This document shows positions 4,250-37,752 of a DNA stretch of 37,753 nucleotides, one piece after another (the first letter of the stretch is position 1; every line of letters starts with the position of its first letter). The position numbers and the translations under genes were made by a program. The notes under the pieces are model-generated. The model searched no databases. It saw nothing but the letters and a program-made list of their open reading frames with translations, and was not told where the DNA came from. The stretch comes from Bacteroidota bacterium (lineage in GTDB: Bacteria; Bacteroidota; Ignavibacteria; Ignavibacteriales; Ignavibacteriaceae). The stretch spans positions 1-37,753 of the forward strand of contig JAMCWE010000138.1 of the NCBI GenBank assembly GCA_023475265.1. Reading direction: 5' to 3'.

Positions 4250-4335
4250 ATATCCTCCTGAAATATATGTTATGAGTTTTGTGTTATTTATTGCGGCCAA
4301 TTATAAGTTTAAGAATTACATTTTTTTTCTTACTT

Positions 4336-5346: not shown

Positions 5347-5382
5347 GACTATCCGACTTAATTTGGTTGACAATTATAATAT

Positions 5383-5396
5383 TGTAAACGTTTACA
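5383..5396. promoter_or_regulatory. LacI-type operator, copy 1
   Basis: Perfect palindrome TGTAAACGTTTACA with the central CG found in LacI/CcpA-type operators. It lies 36 bp before the lacI ATG. On the minus strand a TATAAT sits just downstream of it (within 5371-5380), so a bound repressor would cover the -10/-35 region. Autoregulation is inferred. Confidence 0.85.
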
Positions 5397-5481
5397 TTTT
5401 TTTGTTGAAGTTTTTTCTGCTTTCAATTTTTTTCCATATCAGTAATAAATTTATCGGTAATTTGAATTAGAGTAGAAACAA

Positions 5482-5495
5482 TGTAAACGTTTACA
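5482..5495. promoter_or_regulatory. LacI-type operator, copy 2
   Basis: Second perfect TGTAAACGTTTACA, 99 bp centre-to-centre from copy 1, in the gap between the permease gene end and lacI. The pair could support cooperative binding or a repression loop around the lacI promoter. Confidence 0.83.
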
Positions 5496-5623
5496 TTTTA
5501 AACTACAAAATCACATTCATTTTGTCAAGTAAATTTTTTAGCATCATTACTTTTTGTTATATCCTAGTCATTTTTCGTTAAAATTATATTTGAATTATAT
5601 CAACCGACACAAAAAATAATATC

Positions 5624-7320: not shown

Positions 7321-7328
7321 TGCAAACT

Positions 7329-8639: not shown

Positions 8640-8682
8640 TACCTTTTATGATAGATGAAAAACATTAATTGATAAAAATTTT

Positions 8683-8755
8683 GTGATACTGAAACTTGAA
8701 AAACCTTCCGCGTAGAAAGGAGTGAAATACGCAGATCAATTTGTTTCAGTATCAC
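8683..8755 (-). terminator. Long inverted repeat between GH144 gene and importer operon
   Basis: A perfect 13-bp inverted repeat, GTGATACTGAAAC at 8683-8695 and its complement at 8743-8755, encloses 47 nt that contain a second small stem (GCGTA/TACGC). On the minus strand it is followed by AAAATTTTT. It could be a terminator or attenuator after the GH144 gene, or an RNA processing element that sets the ratio of enzyme to importer mRNA. Confidence 0.5.
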
Positions 8756-8803
8756 TGTTTATTTCATTGAATTTTTAATTCAAAAAAATATTTCTGACTA
8801 AAG

Positions 8804-10660: not shown

Positions 10661-10697
10661 GTTTAATTATTCCTTTTTACTTTCTTTAAACAGATTA

Positions 10698-12773: not shown

Positions 12774-12777
12774 TTCA

Positions 12778-15159
12778 TTATCCTAAATAAACATCCACTA
12801 AAAATTTTTTTTCATCGTTCTCAATACAAATAATATTTCCGGATACAATTTTTCCGTTTACGGAAATTGATTTTACTCCGCTGTTAACATGATTCGGGTT
12901 AAAAACATTAATGATAAATTCTTTATCTCTGAAAATTCTTTTAACGGAATAACTTTTCCATTTTTTAGGGATACAAGGGTCAACAATTAATCCTTTTTCG
13001 TCAGATCTTATTCCTAAAATTCTATCTACAATTACTTTTTGAAACCAAGCAGCTGAGCCGGTATACCAAGTCCAACCGCCGCGTCCGTATAGCGGAGAAT
13101 TTGGACCTTCAATATTTCCCGGAGTTACATATGGCTCAGCAAAATATTCATCCGGATTCATTCCATTATAAATTGGTGAAAGCCTTTTAAAAATTTCATA
13201 CGGTAATTCTCCATTCTTCGTTTCAGCAAAAGCCCAAATTGCCCATGTTGCAGCGTGAGTGTAAACTCCGCCGTTTTCCCTTCTGCCGGCAGCGTAGCGA
13301 GACAGATATCCAATATATTTATCCGGTTTAGAATATGCCGGATACAAAAGCAATGGACCGTTTTTTTTCAATAAATATTTTTTAAGAGACTGTAATGCTA
13401 CTTGATTTTTATCTTGATCACCAATCAAACTTAATACCGCCCATGTTTGAGCATTCAAATAAATTTTACCTTCTTTATTTTTATTGCTTCCGATTATTTC
13501 ATCATTGTCCTTTGTAGCCCTGATATACCACCCTCCATCCCATGAATATTTATCAAACGCTTCTTTCAATTGAGCTGAAATAGTTCGATAACGAGCAGCA
13601 GAATTATTATCTCCAAGTTTTTCGCAGATCGGAATAAAATGATGCAAGATGTAATACAAAAATTCTGTAAGCCAAAATGATTCACCTTTCATTTCAAGTC
13701 CAACTGCACTTAAGCCGTCGTTCCAATCGCCGGCACCTATTAATGTAATTCCTCTATTGCTCAACCTTGTTAAAACTTTTTCTATTGCTTTAATACAATG
13801 TTTGTAAATCGTTTCCTTTAAATTTTTATCATCATAATATTCTGATTCAAAATTAAATAAGTTAATGTTGTTAGTTTCTTTAAGATAATGAATCATCAAA
13901 AATGGCAGCCATAAAAGGTCATCCGTCATTTTAGTTTCTAATCCGGTTTCTGAAATCGGATGCCACCAATGAAGAACCGAACCATCAGCCATTTGATGTT
14001 TTGCGTGAAGCTTAATTTGTTTTTCGGTTAATTCAGGATTGATCGGAAGAAAAACCAGACTGTCCTGCAATTGATCTCTAAATCCAAATGCCCCGCTTTG
14101 CTGATAATATGCTGTTCTTGCCCAAAGCCTTCCGGATATTGCCTGATACTTCAGCCATTTATTTGTAAGAAGATTCATTGCCTCATCAGGTGTATCAACA
14201 ACTAAAGTTCCTAGCAATTCGTTCCAGCGTTTTTTAACATCGGATAATGCTTTGTCAATGGATTCATTTGACGAAAATTTTTTGATGGTGTTTTTAATTT
14301 CTTTTTTATTTTCTTTCAATCCAAGATAGAAGGCAATTCTATCAGTTCCTTTTGGCTTTAATTTACAATTAACTTTTATACTGCCGATCGGATCTCCCCA
14401 GCTTCCAGTTTTCTTAGATAAATTTTTAGCAAAAATACCAGCGGGTTTGATTAAGTCCCCTAACTGTCCAAGGAAAGAATCTTTGTTACTATCATAATCA
14501 CTTATTTTTTTATTGGAAGATAAAAATCCTAAATAAGGATAATCAATATTCCAATGCCCGCGGTCGCCAAGTGGAATTTCCCATAAACGTTTGGTTGCAG
14601 TCATTACATTTGACTTTGCATCAAACTCAGTTTCTAAAAATGATTTATGAAATTCACGATGATGATCCGCGGATGAACCCAAGCACCATTCGAAATATGT
14701 GTAAATGGAAAGATCAACTTCCTTATTTGTTTTATTAGCAATTTTTAAATCCCATATCTCAATTGATTCATCGAATGGAACAAATATGGTTAAAGAAATT
14801 TCCACACCTTTATATATTGAATTAAATTTTGTGTAACCAAATCCGTGAATGCATTCAAATTTATTTAATTCTGTCTTGACCGGTTGGAAAGTTGGACTCC
14901 AGACATCACCGGTTTTATTATTTTTTATATAAATATATTTGCCCCAATTATCCTGAACCAAATCTTGATGCCATCTTGTAAGTCTGTTAAATTCAGAATG
15001 CTCATACCAGCTAAAACCTCCGCCTGCCTGGGAAATCGTAAGCCCATATACGCCATTTGAAATTACATTTATCCACGGCTTAGGAGTTTGGTAGGTTTTA
15101 ATAATATATTCATCGCCATCTTCAGAAAAGTATCCATATTTAGTTTCAAACAACTTCAT
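12778..15159 (-). CDS. GH94-family disaccharide/oligosaccharide phosphorylase
   Basis: 793 residues, no signal peptide. The N-terminal beta-sandwich opens with the family's NPWINVISNG-like segment (TPKPWINVISNGVYGLTISQ), and the (alpha/alpha)6 barrel carries GAGDWNDGLSAVG, placing the general acid at Asp478. ARTAYYQQSGAFGFRDQLQD and HKxx-type HATWAIWAFA segments are also family-typical. GDWNDG followed by GESFWL resembles the GH94 parts of cyclic beta-1,2-glucan synthases and 1,2-beta-oligoglucan phosphorylases more than cellobiose phosphorylase. The reaction would be phosphate plus oligosaccharide giving glucose 1-phosphate and a shortened chain, in the cytoplasm. First gene of the minus-strand unit; AAGGA lies 8 nt before the ATG. 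Substrate from context: sophorose or beta-1,2-gluco-oligosaccharides; cellobiose or laminaribiose not excluded. Confidence 0.9.
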   Translation of the reverse strand: MKLFETKYGYFSEDGDEYIIKTYQTPKPWINVISNGVYGLTISQAGGGFSWYEHSEFNRLTRWHQDLVQDNWGKYIYIKNNKTGDVWSPTFQPVKTELNKFECIHGFGYTKFNSIYKGVEISLTIFVPFDESIEIWDLKIANKTNKEVDLSIYTYFEWCLGSSADHHREFHKSFLETEFDAKSNVMTATKRLWEIPLGDRGHWNIDYPYLGFLSSNKKISDYDSNKDSFLGQLGDLIKPAGIFAKNLSKKTGSWGDPIGSIKVNCKLKPKGTDRIAFYLGLKENKKEIKNTIKKFSSNESIDKALSDVKKRWNELLGTLVVDTPDEAMNLLTNKWLKYQAISGRLWARTAYYQQSGAFGFRDQLQDSLVFLPINPELTEKQIKLHAKHQMADGSVLHWWHPISETGLETKMTDDLLWLPFLMIHYLKETNNINLFNFESEYYDDKNLKETIYKHCIKAIEKVLTRLSNRGITLIGAGDWNDGLSAVGLEMKGESFWLTEFLYYILHHFIPICEKLGDNNSAARYRTISAQLKEAFDKYSWDGGWYIRATKDNDEIIGSNKNKEGKIYLNAQTWAVLSLIGDQDKNQVALQSLKKYLLKKNGPLLLYPAYSKPDKYIGYLSRYAAGRRENGGVYTHAATWAIWAFAETKNGELPYEIFKRLSPIYNGMNPDEYFAEPYVTPGNIEGPNSPLYGRGGWTWYTGSAAWFQKVIVDRILGIRSDEKGLIVDPCIPKKWKSYSVKRIFRDKEFIINVFNPNHVNSGVKSISVNGKIVSGNIICIENDEKKFLVDVYLG

Positions 15160-15471
15160 TCATATTTCCTTTTTAACAAGATTAAATAGTTTATAATCAA
15201 TTAAAATAATTTTAAAAGCGTTCTCTTAATGAAAACACTAAGCTAAAATTCTTCAAAAATTATCTGCCTGGTTGATTTCAAGATAAGGCTGCGCTCAAAA
15301 AATGTAAACGTTTACATTCTAATCTAAAATTTATATATTTATTTGTCAAGTATATTCCCGTTTTTATTATTCAATTTATTTTAAAGTAAAAAGATTGATA
15401 ATTCTCTCTTAACAAATAAGTCCATAAAATTCTAGTTATCAATTAACATTTAATTTTCAAAGGAACGAGTA
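15160..15471. promoter_or_regulatory. Divergent promoter region between GH94 and toroid-hydrolase genes
   Basis: A 312-bp AT-rich gap between two genes read outward. It holds a LacI-type operator near its centre (15303-15316), 143 bp from the GH94 ATG and 155 bp from the plus-strand ATG, so one site can serve both promoters. No RNA gene or small ORF is convincing here. Confidence 0.75.
15303..15316. promoter_or_regulatory. LacI-type operator, copy 3
   Basis: TGTAAACGTTTACA, identical to the two copies before lacI; the match extends to an 18-bp palindrome (AATGTAAACGTTTACATT, 15301-15318). It links the catabolic operon and the divergent hydrolase gene to the LacI regulator about 10 kb away. 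Confidence 0.86.
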
Positions 15472-18400
15472 ATGAGTATTCTAAAAAAAATTTTAGTCCT
15501 GGCATTTGTAATTTCAAGCTCGTCAATACTTTTTTCTCAGACTAGGGTTATTGATAATTTTGATGACTTAAGCACCTGGCAAAAATCTGTTTCTGACGGT
15601 GCGAAAATGTCTGTTTCCTTAGTTGATGGATTACATGGAAAAGCAATAAAAATTGATTACCAATTTACCGGCTCCGGTTATTGCGGTATTGTTAAGAAGT
15701 TGCCTATGAACTTGCCAACGAATTATAAATTTTCATTTTCTGTTAAAGGCAATTCGCCAAAGAATAATTTAGAATTTAAATTAGATGATTCAACCGGCGA
15801 TAATGTTTGGTGGTATGTTTTTAAAAGATTTGATTTCCCAAATAATTGGACTGAAAAAACTATCCGAAAGAGAAATATCACTTTTGCCTGGGGACCAAAA
15901 GCCGGAGGTGATATTCATAGCTTCAATAAAATCGAGTTAATCATTTCGGCTGCTGATGGAGGCAGCGGAACGATATATCTTGATGATCTTTCATTCGAAC
16001 AATTACCTGTTCCAATTATAAAAAATGTTGCGCCGATCGTGGAAGCAACATCAACATTACAAGGAAAACCATCATTAATTTTCGATAATAATTTAAATAC
16101 TTCATGGAGAAGCAAACCGGTTGATAAACAATCACTGACAATAAATTTTCAATACACTAAAGAATATGGCGGTTTAATAATTCATTGGGATAGTTTGAAT
16201 TTTGCTACTGATTACAACATTGAATCCTCCAATGATTTAAAAAATTGGAAAGTTATTTATTCGGCAAAAGATGAATTAAGAAAAATCAGCTTCATTCCTT
16301 TTGGAGATTATGAATCAAATTATTTAAGAATAAATTTCTTTAAGAGCAGCAGAGGGAAAGGATATGCTATAAAAGAAATTAATATCGAAGATTATAGATT
16401 TTCAGAAGATGATAATTACCGATTTGAACAAATTGCAAAAGAATATCCCAAAGGTTATTTCCCAAAATATTTTTTGAATAAGCAGACTTATTGGGATATT
16501 ATCGGAGTAAGCGGCGGCAATCAAAAAGGCTTGATTAACGAAGAAGGAATGATTGAAACCAGCAAGGAAGGTTGTTCCGTAGAACCATTTATTTATTATG
16601 ATAACAAATTCGTGACGTGGAATGATGTCAGTAAAATTCAGAAGCTGGAAAATAATTATCTCCCAATCCCAAGCGTTAAATGGATAAATAACGATCTTAA
16701 TTTAGATATAAAAGCAATCGCTGAAGGAACTCCTTCCTATTCTACAATGTACATCCGTTATACAATTTCGAATAGAACAAGCGAAACTAAAACCGGCAAA
16801 TTATATTTGGCAATAAGGCCGTTTCAAGTAAATCCGCCCTGGCAAAATTTAAATACCACCGGAGGAGTTTCAAAAATAAATTCAATTGATTATGATAATT
16901 CCAAAGCTATAATCAATAACGATAAAGAAATAATTTCTGTTACTCCGGCTGCTAAATTTGGCGCAGTTGATTTTCGTGAGGGTTCAATAATCGATTATAT
17001 CAGCAAAAATTCTTTGCCGGACAGTTCTAGCGTAAAAGATAATGACGGATTTGCTTCCGGTGCTTTTGAATATCCATTTAAAATAAATTCCGAACAAACA
17101 TTAACAGTTATATTAGAAATTCCATTTTATAAAAGTAATGAGATAACTTCGCCCTCAGGCGACCCTTATATGACTAAATTAATGTATCACTTTAAATCGG
17201 AATATTCCCAAAAGCAGTGGAGCGAAAAACTGAATAAAGTAACTTTTAACCTTCCTCCTTCTGAAAATAAATTAATAAACACTTTGCGAAGTAATCTTGC
17301 TTACATACTTATTAACCAAGATGAAAATGCTCTTCAGCCAGGTTCAAGATGTTATGACAGATCATGGATTAGAGATGGAGCGTTAATGTCTGAATCACTT
17401 TTAAAGATGGGCATTACTTCGGCTGTGAAGAATTTTATTAACTGGTATTCTAATTATCAATTCCCTTCCGGAAAAATTCCTTGTGCAGTTGATAAACGCG
17501 GCGCAGATCCAGTTCCCGAAAATGACAGTCAAGGTGAGTATATTTATTTGTTGAAAGAATATTTCAATTTCACTAAAGATACTTCCATGCTGGAAAAACA
17601 TTGGAATAATATTAAATCGACTGTAAACTATATTAAATTTCAAATTGGAGAAGAATCGACCGAGCAAAATAAAAATGGAACTGATGAACAAAAATCTTTT
17701 TACGGATTAGTGCCGGCTTCAATCAGCCATGAAGGTTATTCAGCTAAACCGATGCATTCATATTGGGATGATTTTTTTGTTCTGAAAGGATTAAAAGATG
17801 CTGTTTCAATAGCAGAAGTTCTGGAAAAGAAAAATGAGATTGAAGAATACTCTAAGCTGCGGGATGAGTTTAGAAAAAATCTTTACCACTCAATTAATCT
17901 TGCAATGAAAAATAAAAAAATAAATTATATCCCCGGCTGCGCGGAGCTTGGAGATTTTGATGCTACTTCAACTACTATTGCTGTATCCCCTTGCGGTGAA
18001 TTAAAATATTTGCCGGAGCCCGCTCTTCAAAATACATTCAATAAATATTTTGAAAATTTTAAGAAGAGGCTTAATCCCAAAGATAATTGGATTAATTACA
18101 CACCTTATGAAATCAGAGTGGCGGAAACTTTTGTTTATCTTAATGAATTAGATAGAACTTATGATTTACTAAATTTTTTCTTTAAAGATCAAAGACCTGA
18201 AGGCTGGAATCATTGGGCTGAAGTTGTTTGGAAAAATAAAGACAATCCAAAATTTATTGGAGACATGCCTCATACATGGGTTGGATCAGCTTACATCAAT
18301 GCTGTAAGAGCATTGTTCGTTTATGAGGATGAGGATAAATCTGCACTAATTATTGGAGCCGGGGTTGAAGAAAAATGGCTTGCCGATACATCAGGAATTT

Positions 18401-18639
18401 CAGTAGGAAATTTACCTACTTATTATGGTCCCATTTCATATTCAATTAAAAAAATTAAAAATCAAGTGACAGTTGAAATTAACAGCAAGCTGGATTCATC
18501 GTGCAAAGAAATAATTTTAAAATCACCGGTAAATAAAAAGATTAAAAAAATAATAGTTGACGGCAAAGAATCGGGTAAGTTTAACGGGAATAATATTTTT
18601 CTTAAACGATCAGATAAAAAAATTGTAATTAACTTCTAA
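15472..18639 (+). CDS. Exported multidomain glycosidase-like protein (CBM11-like, discoidin, (alpha/alpha)6 toroid)
   Basis: 1055 residues. ATG at 15472 has AAAGGA 7 nt upstream and leads into a signal peptide (SILKKILVLAFVISSSSILF-SQ). Residues about 25-178 look like a CBM11-type jelly roll (VIDNFDDLSTWQ ... GTIYLDDLSFEQ); about 185-295 like an F5/8 type C (discoidin) domain (PSLIFDNNLNTSWRS, FKSSRGKGYAIKEINIED); about 300-590 a beta-rich linker; about 600-990 an (alpha/alpha)6 region with GSRCYDRSWIRDGA at 624-637 and DSQGEYIYLLKEYF. The last segment is a small beta domain. RSWIRDG-type motifs occur in GH15/GH63-like glycosidases, but I cannot place a family. No T9SS tail, so it is likely periplasmic. 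The shared operator suggests it processes the same glucan as the divergent operon. Confidence 0.85.
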   Translation: MSILKKILVLAFVISSSSILFSQTRVIDNFDDLSTWQKSVSDGAKMSVSLVDGLHGKAIKIDYQFTGSGYCGIVKKLPMNLPTNYKFSFSVKGNSPKNNLEFKLDDSTGDNVWWYVFKRFDFPNNWTEKTIRKRNITFAWGPKAGGDIHSFNKIELIISAADGGSGTIYLDDLSFEQLPVPIIKNVAPIVEATSTLQGKPSLIFDNNLNTSWRSKPVDKQSLTINFQYTKEYGGLIIHWDSLNFATDYNIESSNDLKNWKVIYSAKDELRKISFIPFGDYESNYLRINFFKSSRGKGYAIKEINIEDYRFSEDDNYRFEQIAKEYPKGYFPKYFLNKQTYWDIIGVSGGNQKGLINEEGMIETSKEGCSVEPFIYYDNKFVTWNDVSKIQKLENNYLPIPSVKWINNDLNLDIKAIAEGTPSYSTMYIRYTISNRTSETKTGKLYLAIRPFQVNPPWQNLNTTGGVSKINSIDYDNSKAIINNDKEIISVTPAAKFGAVDFREGSIIDYISKNSLPDSSSVKDNDGFASGAFEYPFKINSEQTLTVILEIPFYKSNEITSPSGDPYMTKLMYHFKSEYSQKQWSEKLNKVTFNLPPSENKLINTLRSNLAYILINQDENALQPGSRCYDRSWIRDGALMSESLLKMGITSAVKNFINWYSNYQFPSGKIPCAVDKRGADPVPENDSQGEYIYLLKEYFNFTKDTSMLEKHWNNIKSTVNYIKFQIGEESTEQNKNGTDEQKSFYGLVPASISHEGYSAKPMHSYWDDFFVLKGLKDAVSIAEVLEKKNEIEEYSKLRDEFRKNLYHSINLAMKNKKINYIPGCAELGDFDATSTTIAVSPCGELKYLPEPALQNTFNKYFENFKKRLNPKDNWINYTPYEIRVAETFVYLNELDRTYDLLNFFFKDQRPEGWNHWAEVVWKNKDNPKFIGDMPHTWVGSAYINAVRALFVYEDEDKSALIIGAGVEEKWLADTSGISVGNLPTYYGPISYSIKKIKNQVTVEINSKLDSSCKEIILKSPVNKKIKKIIVDGKESGKFNGNNIFLKRSDKKIVINF

Positions 18640-27990: not shown

Positions 27991-28669
27991 TTTCGTACCC
28001 TTTTGCCTTTCTGTTTTTTATTATCGATTAGGTTTATTTTGTTAGTTCTCAAAATCATTTGATATTCGCTCAAATTCGCATATTTATATTTGAAATGTCC
28101 ACATTTATTCTATCTATACGCGTATTTCAGTTATTTATATGGACTTTTATTCATATAATTCATGCATTTCAGATATTTATTTCTGTAATAATTCTTCCAA
28201 TGCTTGTATTTCAGTTATTCATATGGATGTCTAAACTTTCCATTCGCATATTCCAAATTATAAGTACCATATCTATACTTCTTATACGGTTACTTAAGAT
28301 ATTACTAGCGGGATTCTAATTAGCCATTCCAATATTTTAACAACAATCACTGCCATTTTCACTATTAACCTTTACAAAAAAAATATTTTTTCATATATAA
28401 GAGTAGATTAAAATCAGTCCTATTGGGAAAATTTTGGGAAAAAAAATTAAAATATTTTTATATATGATGTATAGCATTTGTTAATATTAAATCTAGTAGA
28501 AATTACCAATGACAGGATAGATATTGTACCAATATTACACAATTTATCAAAATAGAAATAGATTAAGACTTCTCCTATTAATAATGGATTAAAACCTATC
28601 AAAAATACTTCGATAGTAATGGCATAATATTAGAAGTTTTTATTAAAAAAATAAATTAGGAATACAATA
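27991..28669. other. Gene-poor AT-rich region with degenerate repeats
   Basis: About 680 bp without a recognised gene. The part at 28078-28260 holds a 42-bp-period repeat (listed separately). Reading the minus strand in the frame of the repeat gives stop codons interrupting coiled-coil-like pieces (ITEIQALEELLQK, ISEMHELYE, ERISNDFEN). The remainder (28321-28660) is very AT-rich, with a near-duplicate of AAAATATTTTT about 70 bp apart, and may contain promoter elements for the small ORF that follows. Confidence 0.55.
28122..28227. repeat. Three-copy imperfect tandem repeat, exact 42-bp period
   Basis: Copies begin at 28122 (GTATTTCAGTTATT), 28164 (GCATTTCAGATATT) and 28206 (GTATTTCAGTTATT), each followed by a matching ATnTATATGGA-like tail; copies 1 and 3 share 21 of 22 bases. 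Weaker relatives flank them near 28080 and 28246. Forty-two bases equal 14 codons or four helical turns of DNA. Probably the remains of a coiled-coil repeat gene. Confidence 0.7.
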
Positions 28670-28768: not shown

Positions 28769-29710
28769 TTATTGATTCGCATAGATTTTATCAGTAAGCC
28801 CCAATTTATAAATTAGACTTTGATATTCATTTTTATATTGTTCAATATTTGATTTAGCAGTATTTATTTCAATGAATAATTTTAATGCCTTATCAAATAT
28901 CTTATGCTGTTCGTAAAAACAAGCTAAAATAAATTTACAAGGAAGCGATTCCTCAAAATCATTTTCAGAAAGTATTTGTTGAAGTGAATCGTTTATCATT
29001 TTAACATTTTCTTTTGGAAGAATGTAAAACCAATATTCCTTAGAAATTGAATCTTTGCCTTTATTACTAACTACACTCCAATAATAGTGATTGTCTTCTA
29101 ACAGATTATACTTTGACACATCGATGTTTAGTAAAGTATCAGTTGTTTCTGTTTCATAAATAATACGATCGAATTTGTCGGATAATCTAAAGTAATACTT
29201 AGTATTATAGCCGCTGCTGTACCAGGAAAAATTAATTGTAGTATCGATAATATTTGAGTTCCTCGGCAAATATAACTTCACTTGATCTTTTGACTCCTTG
29301 CCTCGCATTACAGCTCCTTTAACATCCATTATTTCGCCATGTGAATTCTTTTGGCTAACCTCACCATAGATAAAATCTGCAAATTTATAAGTCATTGATA
29401 CCGAATTTGTTTGTTTAATATTATTTGCTAAATCCTGAACTGGATAAATGCCAACTTTTTTCAATTCTATTGTTTTACCTGACTTATATACTAAACCTAA
29501 ATAAACATTTTTCCCCAATTTTATAATATCGCTTGAATTTAATTTTTTCCCAAAAGAGAGTTTATCCCATTCGTTAGTTTTTTGATCTTTTACAAATGCA
29601 TCTCCATACACAGCTATAACTTTGAATAATTCAGATTGAGGGAAAATCTGATTTATTGAGGTCAAAATGAAAATAATAAAAAATATTACTTTAATATTTC
29701 TAGCCTTCAT
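28769..29710 (-). CDS. FecR-like periplasmic protein
   Basis: 313 residues from the ATG at 29710, with AGAGG 7 nt upstream; an in-frame start 19 codons earlier lies inside the CHASE2 gene and precedes the signal peptide (IKVIFFIIFILTSINQIFPQ). Residues about 25-110 follow the FecR pattern (LFKVIAVYGDAFVKD, LSFGKKLNSSDIIKLGKN, TIELKKVGIYPVQDL), which in other proteins binds envelope or sensor partners. A beta-sandwich-like part follows (TKYYFRLSDKFDRIIYET), then a helical C-terminus that may be TPR-like. It overlaps the CHASE2 gene by 11 bp. FecR-like proteins commonly neighbour CHASE2 proteins; here it may be the periplasmic binding partner of the CHASE2 sensor. Confidence 0.75.
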   Translation of the reverse strand: MKARNIKVIFFIIFILTSINQIFPQSELFKVIAVYGDAFVKDQKTNEWDKLSFGKKLNSSDIIKLGKNVYLGLVYKSGKTIELKKVGIYPVQDLANNIKQTNSVSMTYKFADFIYGEVSQKNSHGEIMDVKGAVMRGKESKDQVKLYLPRNSNIIDTTINFSWYSSGYNTKYYFRLSDKFDRIIYETETTDTLLNIDVSKYNLLEDNHYYWSVVSNKGKDSISKEYWFYILPKENVKMINDSLQQILSENDFEESLPCKFILACFYEQHKIFDKALKLFIEINTAKSNIEQYKNEYQSLIYKLGLTDKIYANQ

Positions 29711-30902
29711 GATAAAGCCTCTTTTTTTTGTTCTTTTTATATTTAATTTTTTTAATAATTTCTTCATAAGTATTTAGAGAATTTGGTGCTAATATTAGGG
29801 AAAGAAGGATAATGGTCGTATCGAATTGATAATTATAAATATTATAAATAAAAACGGAAACATACAGAATTAATATTATTTCGACTATGGTTAGTACTGA
29901 TGCAATTTCATCATACCAATTTTTGCTTTTAAAGAATAACCATGAAAGAAATAATACATCTAAAAAACAAATCAACATTGCAAGAACAATATTCGAATAA
30001 TCCGACATTGTGTTAATAAAATTACCGCTTAATATCATCGAAATAATATTTGCATGAATTATAACACCATACATATCAGGAAATGTTTTTCCTGCATATC
30101 TTTGATTCATTGGAGTAAAAAACTTATCATGAATAAATAATGAATCATTAAAATTTATTCCTAGAAATCCTACAAGAACAATTTTATTTTCGATCATACT
30201 TTTATCAGTGGTAGAGTCCAATTGGTCTATATCAAGGCGCATATAAGTATTATAATTAACATTTCTTTCATAATTTATTCTTTCTTCAGAATTATTACGC
30301 AACAAAAAGGTAATGTACTTTTTTCTATCAAATAATTTCACGCATTGGAGTGAAAATGCATTTATAGTGTCCTCACCTATTTTATATTGGGGTTTGAAGC
30401 TTCTAACTGTCATAAATCCTTTTTCATTATCAGTAATTAAGTTAGCATAACCTTGGGTTACATTCTTTAGAAATACAATATTAGAAGTGTTTATTGAATC
30501 ATATATATTTGACGAGTTATCTTTTCTTATTAGAGCATTAGCTAAAACTATATTTTTTGTTTTCGTTATACTGTTAACCAAATTTTTATCACTTTGTGAT
30601 CCCTCATAGTTCTCAAAAAAAACATCAATGCCTATAACCTTCGGATTCATATTTCTCAGGATATTTAATCTTTTGGATATTTCATTTCTATTTAGAAATC
30701 CGATATTCACAATTACTATATTAGTATCTAAAGGAACATCAGCGTGATTTCGCAACTTGGAAAAGACAATATCACTAAATTCAAAATCGCTAAATGCTTT
30801 CGACATTGGATTAAGGAAATCAAAATCTATTGGTATCCTTGACATACCAAATATGAAAATAAAAATTAATAGAGTAATAATTATTTTATGAATAAAACGC
30901 AT
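29700..30902 (-). CDS. CHASE2-domain membrane sensor protein without output domain
   Basis: 400 residues. One N-terminal membrane helix (about 5-22), a periplasmic CHASE2 domain (about 30-290; NADVPLDTNIVIVNIG-like segment, NPKVIGIDVFF, VNSITKTKNIVLANAL, IENKIVLVGFLG, PDMYGVIIHANIISMILSG), then three closely spaced helices (about 300-375) and a short basic tail (YKKNKKKRLYHEG). CHASE2 normally feeds adenylate cyclases, kinases or phosphatases on the cytoplasmic side; none is attached here, so any signal must go through the membrane to a partner or act on the periplasmic side. Ten bp after the CHAT gene; overlaps the FecR-like gene by 11 bp. Confidence 0.83.
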   Translation of the reverse strand: MRFIHKIIITLLIFIFIFGMSRIPIDFDFLNPMSKAFSDFEFSDIVFSKLRNHADVPLDTNIVIVNIGFLNRNEISKRLNILRNMNPKVIGIDVFFENYEGSQSDKNLVNSITKTKNIVLANALIRKDNSSNIYDSINTSNIVFLKNVTQGYANLITDNEKGFMTVRSFKPQYKIGEDTINAFSLQCVKLFDRKKYITFLLRNNSEERINYERNVNYNTYMRLDIDQLDSTTDKSMIENKIVLVGFLGINFNDSLFIHDKFFTPMNQRYAGKTFPDMYGVIIHANIISMILSGNFINTMSDYSNIVLAMLICFLDVLFLSWLFFKSKNWYDEIASVLTIVEIILILYVSVFIYNIYNYQFDTTIILLSLILAPNSLNTYEEIIKKIKYKKNKKKRLYHEG

Positions 30903-30912
30903 TAATATTCAA

Positions 30913-33426
30913 TTAAATTCCAACCATGATAAAAGCACCCCAGTAGTATGGGTTTGGATATTTATTTTTAATTTCCAATTGAGCGCTCTTAAATGCTTCA
31001 AATTTATTATCACCGTGAATCCATTTCTTGTAAAACTTCACCATAAGTTCTTGGGTTATTTCATCGTCTATCTTCCAAAGGCTCATTATAATTGATTTTG
31101 CACCAGCAATTTGAAATGCTCGTTGTAAGCCATATACACCTTCCCCACTAACAACCTTACCTTTTGCCGTCTCACATGCGGATAAAACTACTAATTCAGT
31201 ACTGTCTAGATTGAGATTGGTTGCTTCCAAAGCAGTTAAAATGCCATCATCAATATCATCGTTATTCTTTTGGAATAGACTTCTGTTCGCACCGGCAAAA
31301 TATAATACTGATCTTAGCAAAGGATAATCTTCTTGATAAGCGTTATCATCAAGATCATCATTTAAATTAGAAAATCCTCCGTGGGTAGCAATATGCAAAA
31401 CAAATGGATTTTCTATAGACTTTATTACTTCTTCAATTGCATTATCTTTTAAATATTTTTCAACTTGCCAATTATTCTCATGTAATATCTTTTCAATTTC
31501 ATTAATTTCTTTTTCGCTACCTTTTAATTCTTTTAAGCTATCTTCTGATACAAAAGGTTGAGTTTGATTTTCAATTTTTATTTTTTTCTTGTAATATTTT
31601 GAAGCCAACTTTACATTTTGAGATTCAGAAAGATTATAATTAGGATTTCCCATTAGGCAGGCATATTTCCTTATCTGACTTTTGACGTCCGTTTTTGTAA
31701 TTATTTCATCAGTATTTGAAACAATAACAATATCATATTTATCAATAAGAAATTTGTTTTCCTTATCTTTTAAAGTATTTAGATTTATTTTATTATAAAC
31801 ACCATCTGATGAAATATAAATACGCCTAATACCATTTAATTTAAGGTCAATATCTTTCCAAAATTGATCATATGATAAGTCGTCATCGAATGAATTCGTA
31901 ATAGATTTTATATAATTAGGATACATAATATTTTCTAGAGAATATCCATTTTCATTAATAACTATCTCCGGATAATTTTTAGTATCATGTGTTAGAATCA
32001 GTGCAGCATAAAATATTGTATCCGTATTCATAAATTGGAAACGAATTATTTCAATAGCTGCCTCAGCAGGTTTTAATTTTAATTGAATATCTTTCCAGTT
32101 TATTTTTTCATTTTCATCTTCGTTATACTTGGAACCCATTAAGCCGCTTAATTCATGTTCCTTCTCGTTAATTAATTCATCTAAAGAATCTAATGGATTA
32201 TTCTCACTAACAATATTATTTTCTGAACTTATGATAATGTTTGAAAATTCTTGTTTAAGACTTTGTATTTGCGAATATAAATTAATTATTGAAGGATCAT
32301 TTGTACTACGAATCTTATTTTTTTCTTTTTGCACTGAATTCAGTAGTAAACCTTTAGTAGCAATTTGATTATTATACATTTCACAAAGAATTTGGGGATT
32401 TGTTTGAAATCTGGATACCGAAAAAAAATTAAATTTATTAATATAGTTTTTAAGTAAATTCCAAAACTTTTTTCTCTCATTTTCATTTAAGGTAGGGAAA
32501 TATTTATCAACTAAAAGAAGGAGTTCATGATTTAGTTTTAGGAAATATTCTTCGGATTTGTCTAAGTTGCCGGAGTCAAAATAAAAGGAGCTTAAATTGC
32601 TTAGTATTTTAGCGTATTGAGGATGACTTTTCCCAAAAGTATTTTGAGTTAAAGAAAGGGCTTCGATATATAACGATTCCGCCATTGTGTAGTTTTGCAT
32701 TTTTTCATTTACAAAACCAAGGTTGTTTAATATATTAATGTAAAAATTGTCTTTTTTATTCTGGCCATTTAACAAATTTAGAGCTTTTTCATATTTCTCT
32801 TCAGCCAATTTAAATTTGCCACTTTTCAAAAGTTCAATTGCATTGCTGCATAAATAATTTATTTGATTATTTAAATCGTCTCCTTGATTTTTTTTGACAA
32901 TTTTTAATAATGAGTCGGCTTTTAATTCTTGACCTTTGCTTCTATAAATTGACGAAAGATTATTAATCGACCGTATATAATCAGTACTTATCTCACTCTG
33001 TTTCTCTCGTCGGAGAACAATTGCTTTTAAACATAAAATTTCTGCTTTGTCTAATTGTCCTAAATTAAAATATAAATTTGATAAATTATCATAAGATGTT
33101 GCTAAATACTTCCACTCATTTGGATATTGGTTTTCTCTTATTGTAAGAGCTTGAGACAAGTATTTCTCAGCCTCGTTATATCTTCCAAGTTCATTACAAA
33201 ACTGACCGATATAACTAAGAATTATTGTATAATTTATTCCCTTATTATCCAGACTATCATCTGCAAGATTTTTTGCTTGCTTCATCAAAAATAATGCTTT
33301 AGAAATATCACCTTCATTATTAACTTTAATTGATTGTAAGTATAATTCCTTCCATTCTTGCGCATAAATATTTTTTTGTAATAAGGAGAAAGAAATAATT
33401 GATAAAAAGACTAAATACTTAATCAA
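30913..33426 (-). CDS. Exported TPR-CHAT caspase-like protease
   Basis: 837 residues starting with TTG at 33426; an in-frame TAA six codons upstream excludes an ATG, and the signal peptide (IKYLVFLSIISFSLLQKNIYAQ) begins at once. Residues about 30-320 are tetratricopeptide repeats (KALFLMKQAKNL, AEKYLSQALTIRENQYP, AESLYIEALSLTQNTFG), then a helical linker, and a C-terminal CHAT domain (about 550-837) of the caspase/separase clan. The catalytic dyad is visible: His682 in HIATHGG and Cys751 in SACETAKG, followed by VYGLQRAFQIAGAKSIIMSLW. The signal peptide predicts a periplasmic protease, unlike most CHAT proteases of defence systems (for example TPR-CHAT with gRAMP), which are cytoplasmic. It sits between outer-membrane-type proteins and CHASE2 in one operon. 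Substrate unknown. Confidence 0.92.
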   Translation of the reverse strand: MIKYLVFLSIISFSLLQKNIYAQEWKELYLQSIKVNNEGDISKALFLMKQAKNLADDSLDNKGINYTIILSYIGQFCNELGRYNEAEKYLSQALTIRENQYPNEWKYLATSYDNLSNLYFNLGQLDKAEILCLKAIVLRREKQSEISTDYIRSINNLSSIYRSKGQELKADSLLKIVKKNQGDDLNNQINYLCSNAIELLKSGKFKLAEEKYEKALNLLNGQNKKDNFYINILNNLGFVNEKMQNYTMAESLYIEALSLTQNTFGKSHPQYAKILSNLSSFYFDSGNLDKSEEYFLKLNHELLLLVDKYFPTLNENERKKFWNLLKNYINKFNFFSVSRFQTNPQILCEMYNNQIATKGLLLNSVQKEKNKIRSTNDPSIINLYSQIQSLKQEFSNIIISSENNIVSENNPLDSLDELINEKEHELSGLMGSKYNEDENEKINWKDIQLKLKPAEAAIEIIRFQFMNTDTIFYAALILTHDTKNYPEIVINENGYSLENIMYPNYIKSITNSFDDDLSYDQFWKDIDLKLNGIRRIYISSDGVYNKINLNTLKDKENKFLIDKYDIVIVSNTDEIITKTDVKSQIRKYACLMGNPNYNLSESQNVKLASKYYKKKIKIENQTQPFVSEDSLKELKGSEKEINEIEKILHENNWQVEKYLKDNAIEEVIKSIENPFVLHIATHGGFSNLNDDLDDNAYQEDYPLLRSVLYFAGANRSLFQKNNDDIDDGILTALEATNLNLDSTELVVLSACETAKGKVVSGEGVYGLQRAFQIAGAKSIIMSLWKIDDEITQELMVKFYKKWIHGDNKFEAFKSAQLEIKNKYPNPYYWGAFIMVGI

Positions 33427-33500
33427 TTTTAATATCTTTTTTAAAGATCATGATTAGAGCAATTTTATTTATAAAGTCAAACTTAAATCCGGTGAACTTA

Positions 33501-34844
33501 TTACATAAAGAAAAATGAGATACCGGCACCTAATGAAAACCCTGTCGTTTTCAAATCAACATTTTCGTCACTTTTAAGAAATGGGACTAAATGATATCCT
33601 GCATCGCCATAAATTCCGAAGCTTCCAATTCGGAAAGTTAAGTTTCCTATAAAATCGATGTCAACACCACGATATGCTTGAGTTATATTTTCGGATTGAT
33701 TCCCGTTTTGAAATTCAATTGATGTATACATATAGTTAACACCAAAAATTAACCCTGGATAAATAAAATCCAATATGGAGAATTTTTGTTGTATTCCGCA
33801 TCCTACTTGAAAGAAGAATAATTTACTATCAATCTGACTCGAGCTTAAATAAGTTTCCTCTTTATAATCACTAGTAAGTGAAAATCTTCCACTAATAAAG
33901 AAACGAGTATTCGCTTTCGAAAAATTAATTTGTAAGCCAAATACCAATGGTGTCAAAGCCTTTCGATCAAAATATTTTTTTAATGTATCAGAGTTAAATG
34001 AAAAGTTTTGTACCGTAAATATCAGCCAATCATTCACTCTATATTTATCTGTTTCTTTCTCTATTTCAATTTCTTCTTTATCTCTTATTACATTTTCAGC
34101 TCTTTCACTTCTTAATTCTGCTAATTTTATTCTATATCTTTTAGTTTTATTCTTATCTATTTTTGTTCTGATATAAAAATTTCTATAAGTCATTTCATTG
34201 AAATCGACAGATTCATTTTCTAAATTAAAATCACAATTTGATGAAGTAGAATATACTTTATCAACAATAACATCTCCTAGAACTTCATCCTTTGCTGATG
34301 AAACTAATTCAAGTTCTTCTCCCTCCATAGCCGATCTATCTGAACCATAATTTATAGAAATTGTTTTTTTATCTATAAACGAATTAACCTTATAAATCGT
34401 TGGAACAGTATATTTAATATATTGCGCTATATAATCTGCTATTTGAATTATACTGGATTCAGATAAATAATTTTGAGTAATAGTTGAAACAACATTAGTT
34501 TGTAGATTGACCACTTCAATTTTAATGTCAAAAAGCGTAACAAAATCTTTTGATTGAGAAATATGCCCCTTTATGATATAGCTTGCAGGTGTAAAATCAA
34601 CATTAATTGTTTTCTTAAAATAATCACGTATTTCCTGAACTTGCATTTCGCCCTGGGTATCAGAAAAATCTCTTGAAACTATAAAGAATGATTTACTTAA
34701 ATTTTCTTTCAGTTGATTTCCAATTTTTTTTGCAATTTGTTCTGTACCGTTATCATCCTGGTAAGTAAAATTAGAAATTGCAATTTGGGGAAAAGTTTTA
34801 AAACCAAATGTTATTATTGAAATTAATAGTAAGATATATTTCAT
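33501..34844 (-). CDS. CsgG/FlgT-like protein fused to an outer-membrane beta-barrel
   Basis: 447 residues with a signal peptide (KYILLLISIITFGFKTFPQ). The N-terminal half (about 20-170) is of the CsgG/TolB-N type seen in envelope assembly proteins (AISNFTYQDDNGTEQIAKKI, SFFIVSRDF, ASYIIKGHISQSKDFVTLFD); the middle (about 175-280) is a charged section; the C-terminal about 165 residues are glycine/aromatic strands ending FSLGAGISFFFM, an outer-membrane barrel terminus. It lies 10 bp after the FlgT-like gene and 74 bp before the CHAT gene. A fused periplasmic module plus barrel could anchor the complex at the outer membrane; specific function unknown. Confidence 0.72.
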   Translation of the reverse strand: MKYILLLISIITFGFKTFPQIAISNFTYQDDNGTEQIAKKIGNQLKENLSKSFFIVSRDFSDTQGEMQVQEIRDYFKKTINVDFTPASYIIKGHISQSKDFVTLFDIKIEVVNLQTNVVSTITQNYLSESSIIQIADYIAQYIKYTVPTIYKVNSFIDKKTISINYGSDRSAMEGEELELVSSAKDEVLGDVIVDKVYSTSSNCDFNLENESVDFNEMTYRNFYIRTKIDKNKTKRYRIKLAELRSERAENVIRDKEEIEIEKETDKYRVNDWLIFTVQNFSFNSDTLKKYFDRKALTPLVFGLQINFSKANTRFFISGRFSLTSDYKEETYLSSSQIDSKLFFFQVGCGIQQKFSILDFIYPGLIFGVNYMYTSIEFQNGNQSENITQAYRGVDIDFIGNLTFRIGSFGIYGDAGYHLVPFLKSDENVDLKTTGFSLGAGISFFFM

Positions 34845-34854
34845 GATATTTTCT

Positions 34855-35967
34855 CTAGTTGATTTCGAAATTGATTAATTTTCCCGATGTACTTTTAATA
34901 TTTAATCGTCTAAAATTTGTTTTTCCACTTAATGCATCGAAGATAGCATCAACAACTTCATCAGGCCGGGGACTTTTAAATGTTATTTCAAATCTATAAT
35001 AATCATCCTGTTTACTCATTCGAATGTCTCCGCTAAATCCGTTATGATTAGTCAAAGCATTTTTAAATTCTCTTGCAATTAAATAATCTGTTATTCCGAA
35101 AATTCTAATTTCATAATTTCCTCCTCTTTCAGCTATACGATTGAAATTCAATAGAATTTGCTCAACAATTTGGTCCGTAGCTTTTATTGAAGCTTCTTTT
35201 ATTGCAATATAGTTTGCATCTTCTTGGTTTAACATACTTCCAACATTACCGCTTGATTGATTTGCAGTACCTGTTCCAGTCCCATTCTCCGAATCAAATG
35301 CTTCTAAGTTAATATTTGCCGATGCGTAATAAGCACCTGTATTCTGATTTTGTCCTTTATTATCTAAAGAAACATTCACTGTAATGTAATAAGGGGCATT
35401 AGCTTTTAAAGCAATATCTTTAATATCCTGACTACCGGAAATTGAAGCCATGTTTTGCATTATATTTCCAATTGCATCTTGAGATATATAAGTAAATCCT
35501 AACCTTCCCAAGTATTCATCAATTGTATTGACTGATAAATCAGTTAATTTTTTTAGTGGATTTTCTCCACTGTAATAAGTAGACATAACTAAAATTTTAG
35601 GTCTATTAACTCTGTCTAATAAATTGTCAATAGCACCAACATCTTTTTCCAAATCTGATCTTGATACAACCGCTCTAATAGTTACTTCCCATTTTTGTGT
35701 ATCAGTGTCAAATTCTTTGTTAGTAATTTCTTCATTTTTAAGATACGCTGTTGGTTTATTAGTTACTTTCCCTTTTATCACTTCCATTTGTTGTGGTCTA
35801 TCTGAAAACAGATCTTCGACACCAAGTTCAACAGCTTTTCGTCTCGCATCTTCAAGCGCATCACGTTCAGTTTTTCCATAACCTGTTGATTTTTCTTTCA
35901 CAGAAGATTGTGCATCTACTAAAATCGGAACAGTTAATAGAACTAAAATCAAGAATATCTTGTTCAT
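34855..35967 (-). CDS. FlgT-N/LPP20-like exported protein
   Basis: 370 residues, signal peptide to VDAQ, GAGGG RBS 6 nt upstream of the ATG. The N-terminal motif GYGKTERDALEDARRKAVEL matches the FlgT N-domain/LPP20 pattern (GxGxTxxDAxxDARRxAV) and is followed by KVTNKPTAYLKNEE and WEVTIRAVVSRSDLE. Residues about 120-270 resemble the middle domain of FlgT/CsgG-like proteins (ILVMSTYYSG, IVEQILLNFNRIAE), and the end (RIFGITDYLIAREFKNAL) a third small alpha/beta domain. The family includes flagellar and lipoprotein envelope factors; no flagellar genes are seen here, so the link is only fold-level. Ten bp from each neighbour. Confidence 0.78.
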   Translation of the reverse strand: MNKIFLILVLLTVPILVDAQSSVKEKSTGYGKTERDALEDARRKAVELGVEDLFSDRPQQMEVIKGKVTNKPTAYLKNEEITNKEFDTDTQKWEVTIRAVVSRSDLEKDVGAIDNLLDRVNRPKILVMSTYYSGENPLKKLTDLSVNTIDEYLGRLGFTYISQDAIGNIMQNMASISGSQDIKDIALKANAPYYITVNVSLDNKGQNQNTGAYYASANINLEAFDSENGTGTGTANQSSGNVGSMLNQEDANYIAIKEASIKATDQIVEQILLNFNRIAERGGNYEIRIFGITDYLIAREFKNALTNHNGFSGDIRMSKQDDYYRFEITFKSPRPDEVVDAIFDALSGKTNFRRLNIKSTSGKLINFEIN

Positions 35968-35977
35968 AGTTTCCCTC

Positions 35978-37051
35978 TTAAAATTGTTGTTTTGATTTTT
36001 TCCTTTTTTCTTTTTGATTATAGCTATCTTTCTTTGAATTCATAGAATGATTTTCATTTAGTTTTGAAGTAATTATTTCATAAACACCACTCCCTAATGT
36101 TCCCGCATAAAGATTTCCTTCCTTTGATAGATATATAGAATATATCTTTTGATTTGAATAATCACCATTAATTTTAATCCAACTTAAACCGCCGTTGCTG
36201 GAATAATAAACACCATAATCATAAGTACTGGCATATATGTTACCATTATTGTCACAAACTAATCCGCTGATATAAGGATTGGGAATCCCGTCTTTTCTTC
36301 CCCCCTTATTACTAATATTCGACCACTGATTTTTCCTTTTATTAAAAGCATAAACTCCTCCACCATGAGTTGCTATATACAAAGTTCCTTTACTTTCTGT
36401 AATTACCCTTATATTACTATTATCTAAACCATTGCTTATATCTTCCCAATTTTCTCCATGATTTGTTGATTTGAAAATACCTGACACCGTACCCGCAAAA
36501 AATTCTTCTTTAGAGTTTATAAAAAGATAGTTTATAGATACATTTTTTAACCCGTTATTAATCGGCTTCAGAAGAGAATCATCAAATACACGCATGAAAA
36601 TTCCATCATCGGTTCCATATAATAAGCTATTATCTTTCGAAATAACGATTGAATAATTAATTCTGTCTTTAGGTTTTCGTGCCTGAACAGTCCAAAATTT
36701 TTCTAATTTAAATTTGGAATCTACAGCAGTCGTGTCAAATTCGGATGAATAGCGGCGGCTCAATTTATAAACATTACCCAAGCTTCCAGCATAAATATTA
36801 TTTACGCTGTCGGCAATTAAACAATATACATCGGTATTTATTTTACCACCATCAACTCTCTGCCATAAAGTATCCTTTTCAGACCAACACCATATTCCAG
36901 AATTAGAAGTCCCAATAAAAAGAGTACCTGAAATTTCAGTAATTGAATAAATACTCCCTCCAAAAGGTCTTCCCAATTGTTTCCAATTGCTTTGCCCAAT
37001 AATCAATGAGGAGCTTATCAAAATGATTGAGCTAAGTAAACTAAATTTCAT
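35978..37051 (-). CDS. Exported Asp-box beta-propeller protein (photosystem II assembly factor/sortilin-like repeats)
   Basis: 357 residues. Signal peptide (KFSLLSSIILISSSLIIGQ) and about six to seven propeller blades marked by SxNGGxSWxxI-type Asp boxes (STNHGENWEDISNGL, SSNGGLSWIKINGD) and YAGTxGxGVY strands (LYIATHGGGVYAFN, LYAGTLGSGVYEI). The last 30 residues are basic and low-complexity (KKDSYNQKEKRKKSKQQF). Such propellers act as binding or scaffold surfaces; here it is periplasmic or outer-membrane-facing and part of the CHAT operon, 10 bp before the FlgT-like gene. AGGTGAG lies just before the ATG. Confidence 0.82.
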   Translation of the reverse strand: MKFSLLSSIILISSSLIIGQSNWKQLGRPFGGSIYSITEISGTLFIGTSNSGIWCWSEKDTLWQRVDGGKINTDVYCLIADSVNNIYAGSLGNVYKLSRRYSSEFDTTAVDSKFKLEKFWTVQARKPKDRINYSIVISKDNSLLYGTDDGIFMRVFDDSLLKPINNGLKNVSINYLFINSKEEFFAGTVSGIFKSTNHGENWEDISNGLDNSNIRVITESKGTLYIATHGGGVYAFNKRKNQWSNISNKGGRKDGIPNPYISGLVCDNNGNIYASTYDYGVYYSSNGGLSWIKINGDYSNQKIYSIYLSKEGNLYAGTLGSGVYEIITSKLNENHSMNSKKDSYNQKEKRKKSKQQF

Positions 37052-37088
37052 TTCTCACCTTTATATTAATCTAGGGAATAGTTCTGAG

Positions 37089-37532
37089 TTATTTATTTTT
37101 ATTATACAAATTCTCTGGGATTTCAAGTGAATCTTTCAAAATATTTTCATTTCTGTTTTTCATCCTCTCTTTTATCTTTACTATCTTTTCTCTTGATAAT
37201 CCAATTGACAAAACAATTTCGAATTGTTGTAAATCTTGAAAGTATCTTTTCTTAATTATCTTTTCCGACTGAATAAAATAGTCTGGATCTGAACCTATTT
37301 TTATAATTAAACTATCTGGCAAGTCTCCTTTCCTAATACCGTAATCCAACAAAGCATATGAAATTGCTTTTAGTTTTGCTTTTTGTACTGCTTCAATTTC
37401 GGTTTTCCCTCTTCCTCTAGTCTCCCTAAAAATGCATTGACCAATTAATTTTGAATTGCATGCAATTAAAATTACAAATAGAATTTGCGTTACTATAATT
37501 AATGTTTTAATATTATTGTGTAGGCGGTTCAT
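37089..37532 (-). CDS. Small FlgT-N-like exported protein or lipoprotein-like
   Basis: 147 residues, ATG at 37532 overlapping the end of the upstream frame by 20 bp, indicating coupled translation. Leader INNIKTLIIVTQILFVILIAC-like sequence (ending FVILIACNSKLIGQ) suggests an exported protein, possibly a lipoprotein at the Cys in IACNS. The core ETRGRGKTEIEAVQKAKLKA is the same GxGxTxxxA motif as in the larger FlgT-like protein of this operon. It is thus a single-domain relative. Gap of 37 bp before the propeller gene. Confidence 0.68.
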   Translation of the reverse strand: MNRLHNNIKTLIIVTQILFVILIACNSKLIGQCIFRETRGRGKTEIEAVQKAKLKAISYALLDYGIRKGDLPDSLIIKIGSDPDYFIQSEKIIKKRYFQDLQQFEIVLSIGLSREKIVKIKERMKNRNENILKDSLEIPENLYNKNK

Positions 37533-37752
37533 TTAGTTTTATTCTTATATTAACAAACATTTTTAATAGCCCAAAACCATTCGGTAATTGCGAAAGACTT
37601 AGAGATGGACCAAAGGCAAAATCCTTAGCAAAACTTTCAAATAGATTTGAGACTAACAAATCACAACTGACTTGGTTCCTTCGTATATGATCTGTGTCTT
37701 TAAACATATAGTCTAATCTGAAATCAAATTTAGACTGAATTTTATATCCTAA
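37513..37752 (-). CDS. C-terminal end of a probable outer-membrane protein (partial, right edge)
   Basis: An open frame enters at the right edge with no upstream stop and ends at 37513; 79 residues are visible, more than the internal ATG at 37707 would give. Alternating strands (YKIQSKFDFRLDYMFKDTDH, LLKMFVNIRIKLNEPPTQ) are compatible with an outer-membrane or beta-rich C-terminus, but the sample is short. It overlaps the next gene's start by 20 bp, so it is an upstream member of the same operon. The operon promoter therefore lies outside the window. Confidence 0.55.
   Translation of the reverse strand, partial: LGYKIQSKFDFRLDYMFKDTDHIRRNQVSCDLLVSNLFESFAKDFAFGPSLSLSQLPNGFGLLKMFVNIRIKLNEPPTQ

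Follow-up and report, generated by a model that had tools for sequence, protein, structure and literature searches.

The window analysed here is a stretch of 37,753 bp that constitutes contig C123 of a 4.77-Mb Bacteroidota genome (family Ignavibacteriaceae) in 270 contigs. Between coordinates 28769 and 37752 it contains a single minus-strand run of genes encoding seven complete proteins and one truncated at the contig end, and this report concerns a gene pair at the downstream end of that run, a CHASE2 membrane protein and an adaptor resembling MtxA, together with the exported proteases that recur beside such pairs. In the window the pair adjoins a CHAT protease, and the three genes are as follows.

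28769..29710, minus strand: MtxA-like adaptor, with a leader, a FecR/retention-like beta domain, an immunoglobulin (Ig)-like domain and TPR hairpins (model mcba51bf86d80)
29700..30902, minus strand: CHASE2 membrane protein without an output domain, comprising a helix, a periplasmic CHASE2 domain, three C-terminal helices and a short basic tail (Pfam, alignment A1, model m0630453bb269)
30913..33426, minus strand: exported TPR-CHAT protease with a TTG start and a leader, its CHAT domain at 30919-31872 (Pfam CHAT, 196 bits, plus TPR)

An earlier examination of the same DNA without database searches (hereafter the sequence-only reading) described one minus-strand run of eight genes with short gaps or overlaps. 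The run, its strand and its spacing stand (gaps of 10, 74, 10, 10 and 37 bp, and overlaps at both ends), but the count is too low, because the last 127 bases of the window are exactly the first 127 of contig C26 of the same genome, and the operon thus runs on to include at least eleven genes. Contig C26 carries the remainder of the cut gene, a protein with one transmembrane (TM) segment, a multi-TM protein, and a VWA/OmpA protein of 700 amino acids (OmpA, 86.3 bits; the VWA match is weak). The same eleven genes are present in identical order in a second species of the genus (G512; loci L072 and L119), and the ratios of non-synonymous to synonymous substitution (dN/dS) between the two are 0.08-0.20 for the seven complete genes. 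All seven also encode a hydrophobic N-terminal stretch, which in the CHASE2 protein is the first membrane helix, in agreement with the prediction that all members have export leaders or membrane segments; the criterion used is a plain one of hydrophobicity, which 236 of 608 other open reading frames (ORFs) satisfy too. A scan of the minus strand of the run revealed no terminator-like site inside it, and a promoter scan was uninformative.

The CHASE2 protein matches its Pfam family (PF05226) with 80.5 bits against a cut-off of 26.3, its 400 amino acids contain no further Pfam domain, and in the structural model the last helix ends near residue 399. It is therefore, as first proposed, a CHASE2 membrane protein without a recognisable cytoplasmic output such as a kinase or cyclase.

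The longest ORF for the adaptor opens at 29767, and the ATG at 29710 is the likelier start because the leader begins directly there. Numbered along the longest ORF, the beta domain occupies residues ~46-110, the Ig-like domain ~165-250 and the TPR hairpins ~252-331. In a model built from 18 relatives (mean pLDDT 80.2), the C-terminal half has as its best match the MtxA crystal structure 4z29 (Foldseek E 1.9e-6; VIA-align Z 13.1, 155 residues aligned, root-mean-square deviation (rmsd) 3.0). The first domain aligns over 75 of 76 residues with 5ix9, a "Cell surface anchoring domain" (Z 11.6, rmsd 2.8) that we take to be the retention domain of a Marinomonas adhesin. Sequence profiles are less generous. 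Pfam MtxA_C is absent among the adaptor's hits at E ≤ 0.1 and matches only one of 18 relatives, weakly (E 0.0049), and we therefore call the protein MtxA-like and not MtxA. The LapA-type retention profile NF033682 of NCBIfam scores 13.1 bits (cut-off 50, E 0.084), and a PDB sequence search with the first domain returned nothing useful. DUF928 was considered as the family and rejected (E 0.072, under the cut-off). The description of this protein as FecR-like draws some support from its fold and from profile comparison with a selected set, but none from the Pfam FecR family (PF04773), which matches none of 18 relatives at E ≤ 0.1 and nothing in genome G000 at E ≤ 1e-3. Compared by hhalign with all 19 fetched FecR loci, one row being a 26-residue fragment, the adaptor gives a probability of 1.2 (E 0.046); with four periplasmic FecR proteins picked from those 19 the probability is 93 (E 3.6e-7), and with their leaders removed 85.5 (E 5.6e-6), the reversed controls giving E 0.098 and 0.22.

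The CHASE2 protein as a query finds matches in 50 of 296 genomes of the phylum at E ≤ 1e-3, and its alignment finds matches in 85 of 391 genomes of the class at E ≤ 1e-15. Among the 78 CHASE2 genes of the fetched loci, 64 adjoin an adaptor gene and three are fused to one, in a set where the ORF picker did not call the gene in L044 and L067 and where the adaptor of L064, cut by a contig end, is scored as absent. In 63 of the 64 the adaptor lies downstream of CHASE2. The median gap is 2 bp, and in 50 of the 64 the spacing stays within 100 bp in either direction. It is this CHASE2-adaptor pair that forms the conserved unit. One of the fusions (L039) has a hydrophobic stretch between its two parts that would fit a fifth membrane pass. 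A Bernardetia plasmid also carries the pair, its adaptor annotated as hypothetical (E 4e-70 to the adaptor model), and no protease is annotated nearby. In L107 (8353-13677), a locus from another family, the CHASE2 protein is longer (674 amino acids, the C-terminal part having no Pfam family) and is again accompanied by an adaptor, with a neighbouring propeller protein of 1032 amino acids whose Peptidase_MA_2 match is under the cut-off; L108-L110 have similar layouts.

The third gene encodes a TPR-CHAT protease as predicted, with 196 bits to Pfam CHAT (PF12770; cut-off 24). When the window protein is aligned with five relatives, His678, His682 and Cys751 do not vary, and the pair His682 and Cys751 is in keeping with the His/Cys dyad noted earlier. 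The leader assigned to it is also found on the CHAT proteins of L072 and L045, the two other loci with CHAT, CHASE2 and adaptor together. PDB searches matched the TPR half to kinesin-light-chain-like TPRs, and the CHAT half only weakly to one unrelated designed protein. CHAT genes also occur apart from the pair: relatives in Fulvivirga and Noviherbaspirillum (L034-L036) have no CHASE2 match within their 20-22 kb, the five genomes examined among eight others of the family with CHAT at E ≤ 1e-40 (L150-L155) have none in the stretches read, and two regions read from cyanobacterial and other plasmid CHAT loci have no annotated CHASE2 or FecR. In L150 and L151 an exported-looking CHAT gene stands next to a caspase-like gene, with no CHASE2 in the stretch read.

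Proteases near the pair were counted in 58 genomes, comprising 52 of the 85 class genomes with CHASE2 matches and six from the phylum search, which were chosen for strong and mostly full-length CHASE2 proteins and not for proteases; 33 genomes with weaker matches, mostly in longer frames, were left out. The weak CHAT rows G178:C8, G178:C7:38405 and G571:C52 and a second C1 piece (G471:C35:14620) were dropped beforehand. Within 7 kb of CHASE2, a limit set once the locus maps had been seen, there are 31 matches to CHAT, C14 (caspase) or C1 (papain) proteases where 1.00 is expected, and 30 of them are on the same strand. By type these are 3 of 65 CHAT matches (0.43 expected), 18 of 73 C14 (0.41) and 10 of 35 C1 (0.16), and they are spread over 21 of 58 genomes (window included), 18 of 37 genera and 10 of 13 families. 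CHAT and C14 on one side and C1 on the other presumably belong to two unrelated protease clans. On a CHASE2 tree built by a quick method, with long-branch warnings, the fewest changes are 11 between protease states and eight between presence and absence of a protease. The order CHASE2-adaptor-C1-small protein-C14 recurs in L037, L038, L065, L073, L075, L076, L078 and L087, and with extra genes in L071, where the caspase has a CsgG domain (70.3 bits).

These proteases appear intact and exported. Across the proteases of all fetched loci, beside the pair or not, the catalytic residues are kept in 22 of 22 C14 rows (His, Cys), 12 of 12 C1 rows (Gln, Cys, His, Asn) and nine of nine CHAT proteins, the CHAT alignment having 11 rows of which two are half-domains of split hits. 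Leader-like N-termini are present on 9/9 CHAT, 12/12 C1 and 19/22 C14 proteins and on 73/78 adaptors, the rate for other ORFs being the 236/608 given above. Two genomes of one genus (G283 and G505) combine several of the components in one protein, the gene directly 3' of CHASE2 encoding a leader, an adaptor domain, a caspase and a C-terminal outer-membrane barrel. The barrel scores 28.2 bits in L046, over the cut-off of 27, and 23.3 bits in L068, under it. In L046, residues 2-151 align with the adaptor model and 165-386 with the caspase, with no Ig-TPR half. In a third species of the genus this fusion gene is split between two contigs. On another contig of the window's own genome (L113, 4821-11804), genes for a second adaptor, a papain-family protease, a small protein and a caspase occur together, and a further protein there has a type IX sorting tail.

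The pairing of FecR proteins with CHASE2 receptors that have cytoplasmic outputs is already known, and the presence of the pair beside exported papain and caspase genes as well is a broader pattern than the sequence-only reading described. That reading named a lack of neighbourhood conservation outside this genome as what would speak against it, a check it passes, because CHASE2 with an adjacent FecR-like gene is widely conserved; CHAT (3/58 genomes) and the "FlgT", "CsgG" and propeller genes are not constant companions. A fixed set of CHAT, CHASE2, FecR, FlgT and CsgG was rejected, since L045 has CHAT, CHASE2 and adaptor without the rest. The "FlgT", "CsgG" and propeller genes occur in the same arrangement in one further species only (L072), and not in L045. 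The other five genes of the run are as follows.

33501..34844, minus strand: exported protein of 447 amino acids, 70% identical to its L072 orthologue; CsgG-like label not confirmed
34855..35967, minus strand: exported protein of 370 amino acids, 79% identical to its L072 orthologue; FlgT-N-like label not confirmed
35978..37051, minus strand: exported beta-propeller protein with Reg_prop/BNR repeats
37089..37532, minus strand: short exported protein related to the 370-residue protein
37513..37752, minus strand: C-terminus of an exported outer-membrane-type protein, the gene continuing on C26 (by the contig overlap, and with the order as in L119)

Several of the family labels first given to these proteins found no confirmation. 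Neither FlgT-N nor CsgG appears among Pfam families at E ≤ 1, and no related PDB chain was found at E ≤ 10; the "CsgG-like barrel fusion" is thus unsupported, its L072 orthologue having a weak OMP_b-brl match under the cut-off. The two "FlgT-N-like" proteins are related to one another, a hidden Markov model of the 370-residue pair matching the short protein at E 8.6e-8. The propeller is borne out (Reg_prop, 51.3 bits; cut-off 20.4), and is a candidate substrate or surface partner. The "outer-membrane-type end" resembles the C-terminus of an exported L072 protein of 411 amino acids, for which Pfam has no family, so that the barrel itself is an assignment by eye. Elsewhere in the window, the region 28050-28320 between the run and the next genes is AT-rich with short similar motifs (for example variants of TTTCAGTTATTCATATGGA), in which a tandem-repeat program found no array. 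The region 2327-18639 holds a carbohydrate-use cluster with a GH94 phosphorylase, a GH2 enzyme, a putative glucoamylase, parts of an ABC transporter and a LacI regulator, and also encodes proteins with type IX sorting tails.

A membrane sensor of this kind and its soluble partner usually serve signalling inside the cell; their position here beside genes for envelope-exported proteases points to a response in which a signal leads to the cutting of proteins beyond the inner membrane. We propose, with a probability of about 0.5, that at a recurring fraction of loci, including that of the window, a periplasmic protease is under the control of CHASE2 and a retention-fold adaptor in a circuit like that of Lap. 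The core would consist of two proteins, a CHASE2 protein of the inner membrane that has no cytoplasmic output and an MtxA-like adaptor in the periplasm, the exported cysteine protease coupled to them being CHAT in the window and papain or caspase elsewhere. The CHASE2 domain would read an envelope condition and, through the adaptor, hold or release the protease in the periplasm; the FecR/retention-like domain of the adaptor may dock the protease, and its TPR/Ig part CHASE2 or a substrate. As output, proteins of the envelope or cell surface would be cut, candidates being the propeller or barrel proteins encoded alongside, or perhaps neighbours with type IX sorting tails (4/6 of those scanned). 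The pair is read as a sensor with a periplasmic partner because FecR proteins beside CHASE2 kinases and cyclases have been published (PMC5192318, PMC9239204, PMC4439547; here and below, papers are cited from excerpts). Gating of the protease is proposed because the first domain of the adaptor is of the retention type in its fold and it is this domain that the fusions join to the caspase, because CHASE2 ends after its last helices while the sole enzyme in the recurrent neighbourhoods is exported, and because LapD and LapG offer a precedent. The periplasmic location of the protease, the docking, the direction of control and the substrate are what we infer. A wider version, which we offer tentatively and think somewhat less than even odds, is a form of transmembrane signalling in which CHASE2 receptors have lost their cytoplasmic output and signal outward. 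The retention-fold adaptor would gate a periplasmic protease for which unrelated folds can stand in for one another (CHAT, caspase, papain and perhaps metallopeptidases), the extreme case being the adaptor-caspase-barrel protein in the outer membrane.

Several observations weigh against the proposed circuit. A fold search with the CHASE2 protein gave no clear match (best Z 5.7), and its role as a sensor therefore rests on the name of the family. The pair occurs without a protease in whole families, namely in the double CHASE2 plus adaptor of f11, in most of f7 (where its neighbours look like short NfeD and stomatin) and in f35, as well as in L077 and L085 of the same genus; for 57 of the 78 CHASE2 genes, the 7 kb to either side contain none of these proteases on the CHASE2 strand, some of these loci being cut by contig ends. 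Conversely, 62/65 CHAT, 55/73 C14 and 25/35 C1 matches lie elsewhere in these genomes, and L113 has adaptor, C1 and C14 but no CHASE2. The genus has CHAT of the window type in 2 of its 13 genomes and the family in 11 of its 80, and CHAT adjoins CHASE2 in only three of the 58 genomes (window, L072, L045). The choice of the 7-kb limit after the fact counts on the same side.

Three other explanations were considered. In the first, the proteases mature or clear cargo of type IX secretion as a matter of processing or quality control, and CHASE2 and the adaptor merely form a scaffold between the membranes with no signalling. Type IX sorting tails score over the cut-off in four of six neighbouring proteins scanned (L037, L113, L040 and L102, but neither L106 nor the L072 propeller), further sorting-tail proteins are encoded in the window, and OmpA proteins adjoin the pair in L045, L040 and L106 and are also encoded on C26. 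However, the window's own propeller has no type IX tail, and elsewhere the pair is joined to cyclases and kinases, which indicates signalling (PMC4439547, PMC5192318, PMC9239204), and we consider this explanation unlikely. Quite unlikely, in our estimate, is that the pair is a stand-alone house-keeping module of the envelope and that proteases lie near it by chance in shared envelope operons. Most pairs indeed lack a nearby protease and their other neighbours are varied, but this is difficult to square with the excess of 31 matches over 1.00 expected, 30 of them on the same strand, with at least eight changes between presence and absence of a protease on the CHASE2 tree (gains and losses alike, subject to the warnings given above), or with the adaptor-caspase-barrel fusions. 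A role in defence or programmed death, with the exported protease killing the cell or a rival upon an envelope insult, is improbable: proteases of the CHAT and caspase types have known roles in defence (Craspase), and the L037 and L046 caspases are hit by a PADLOC caspase model, but none of seven window proteins matches PADLOC at E ≤ 0.01 and the leaders point outside the cytoplasm.

Little is understood of what CHASE2 receptors bind and how they act, and we found no assigned role for exported bacterial CHAT or caspase proteins; the pair ties the two questions together, the natural fusions name the likely docking domain, and both could be tested with a few purified proteins. The sequence-only reading held that a periplasmic protease beside a sensor without output would be a new arrangement. 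Half of this is already in print, as the sensor with its FecR protein is described with cytoplasmic outputs, and the protease-coupled form may be new: in the literature searched, which excludes subscription papers and preprints, none of the papers listed describes a protease-coupled FecR-CHASE2 pair, and no paper joins CHASE2 with "CHAT domain".

Four known systems invite comparison. In magnetotactic bacteria the MtxA gene adjoins a CHASE2-adenylate-cyclase gene (PMC4439547). MtxA and the adaptor share the fold of the Ig and TPR C-terminal half (Z 13.1) and a position beside a CHASE2 gene, but the neighbour of MtxA has a cyclase where the window CHASE2 has no output, and the excerpted text mentions no protease with MtxA. 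A LysM-FecR protein accompanies a CHASE2 histidine kinase in the BiofilmReg operon (PMC5192318), and FecR-domain and TPR proteins accompany a CHASE2 cyclase in Campylobacterota (PMC9239204); here too a periplasmic or envelope FecR-domain protein is encoded next to CHASE2, whereas the output, kinase or cyclase, is cytoplasmic. Trichodesmium has a caspase-CHASE2 fusion (PMC3501461, PMC2853523), which likewise links a caspase-fold protease to CHASE2, but its caspase is placed in the cytoplasm by the authors, whereas the proteases described here carry leaders. Finally, LapD inhibits the periplasmic protease LapG (PMC3032545), and retention domains dock on DvhG, a protease of the LapG type, and speed cleavage (PMC13090378). 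The proposed circuit would share with these an inner-membrane protein that controls a periplasmic cysteine protease, and a retention-type beta domain as the docking part. It differs in that the proteases are CHAT, caspase or papain, CHASE2 has no cyclic di-GMP (c-di-GMP) domains, and the retention-like domain resides in the adaptor and not in a known adhesin. A Pfam scan of seven window proteins found neither GGDEF/EAL nor the LapG family, and without LapG or a c-di-GMP receptor the system is not filed as Lap. If the proposal is correct, the Lap principle, in which a periplasmic protease is controlled from the inner membrane, would extend to new protease folds.

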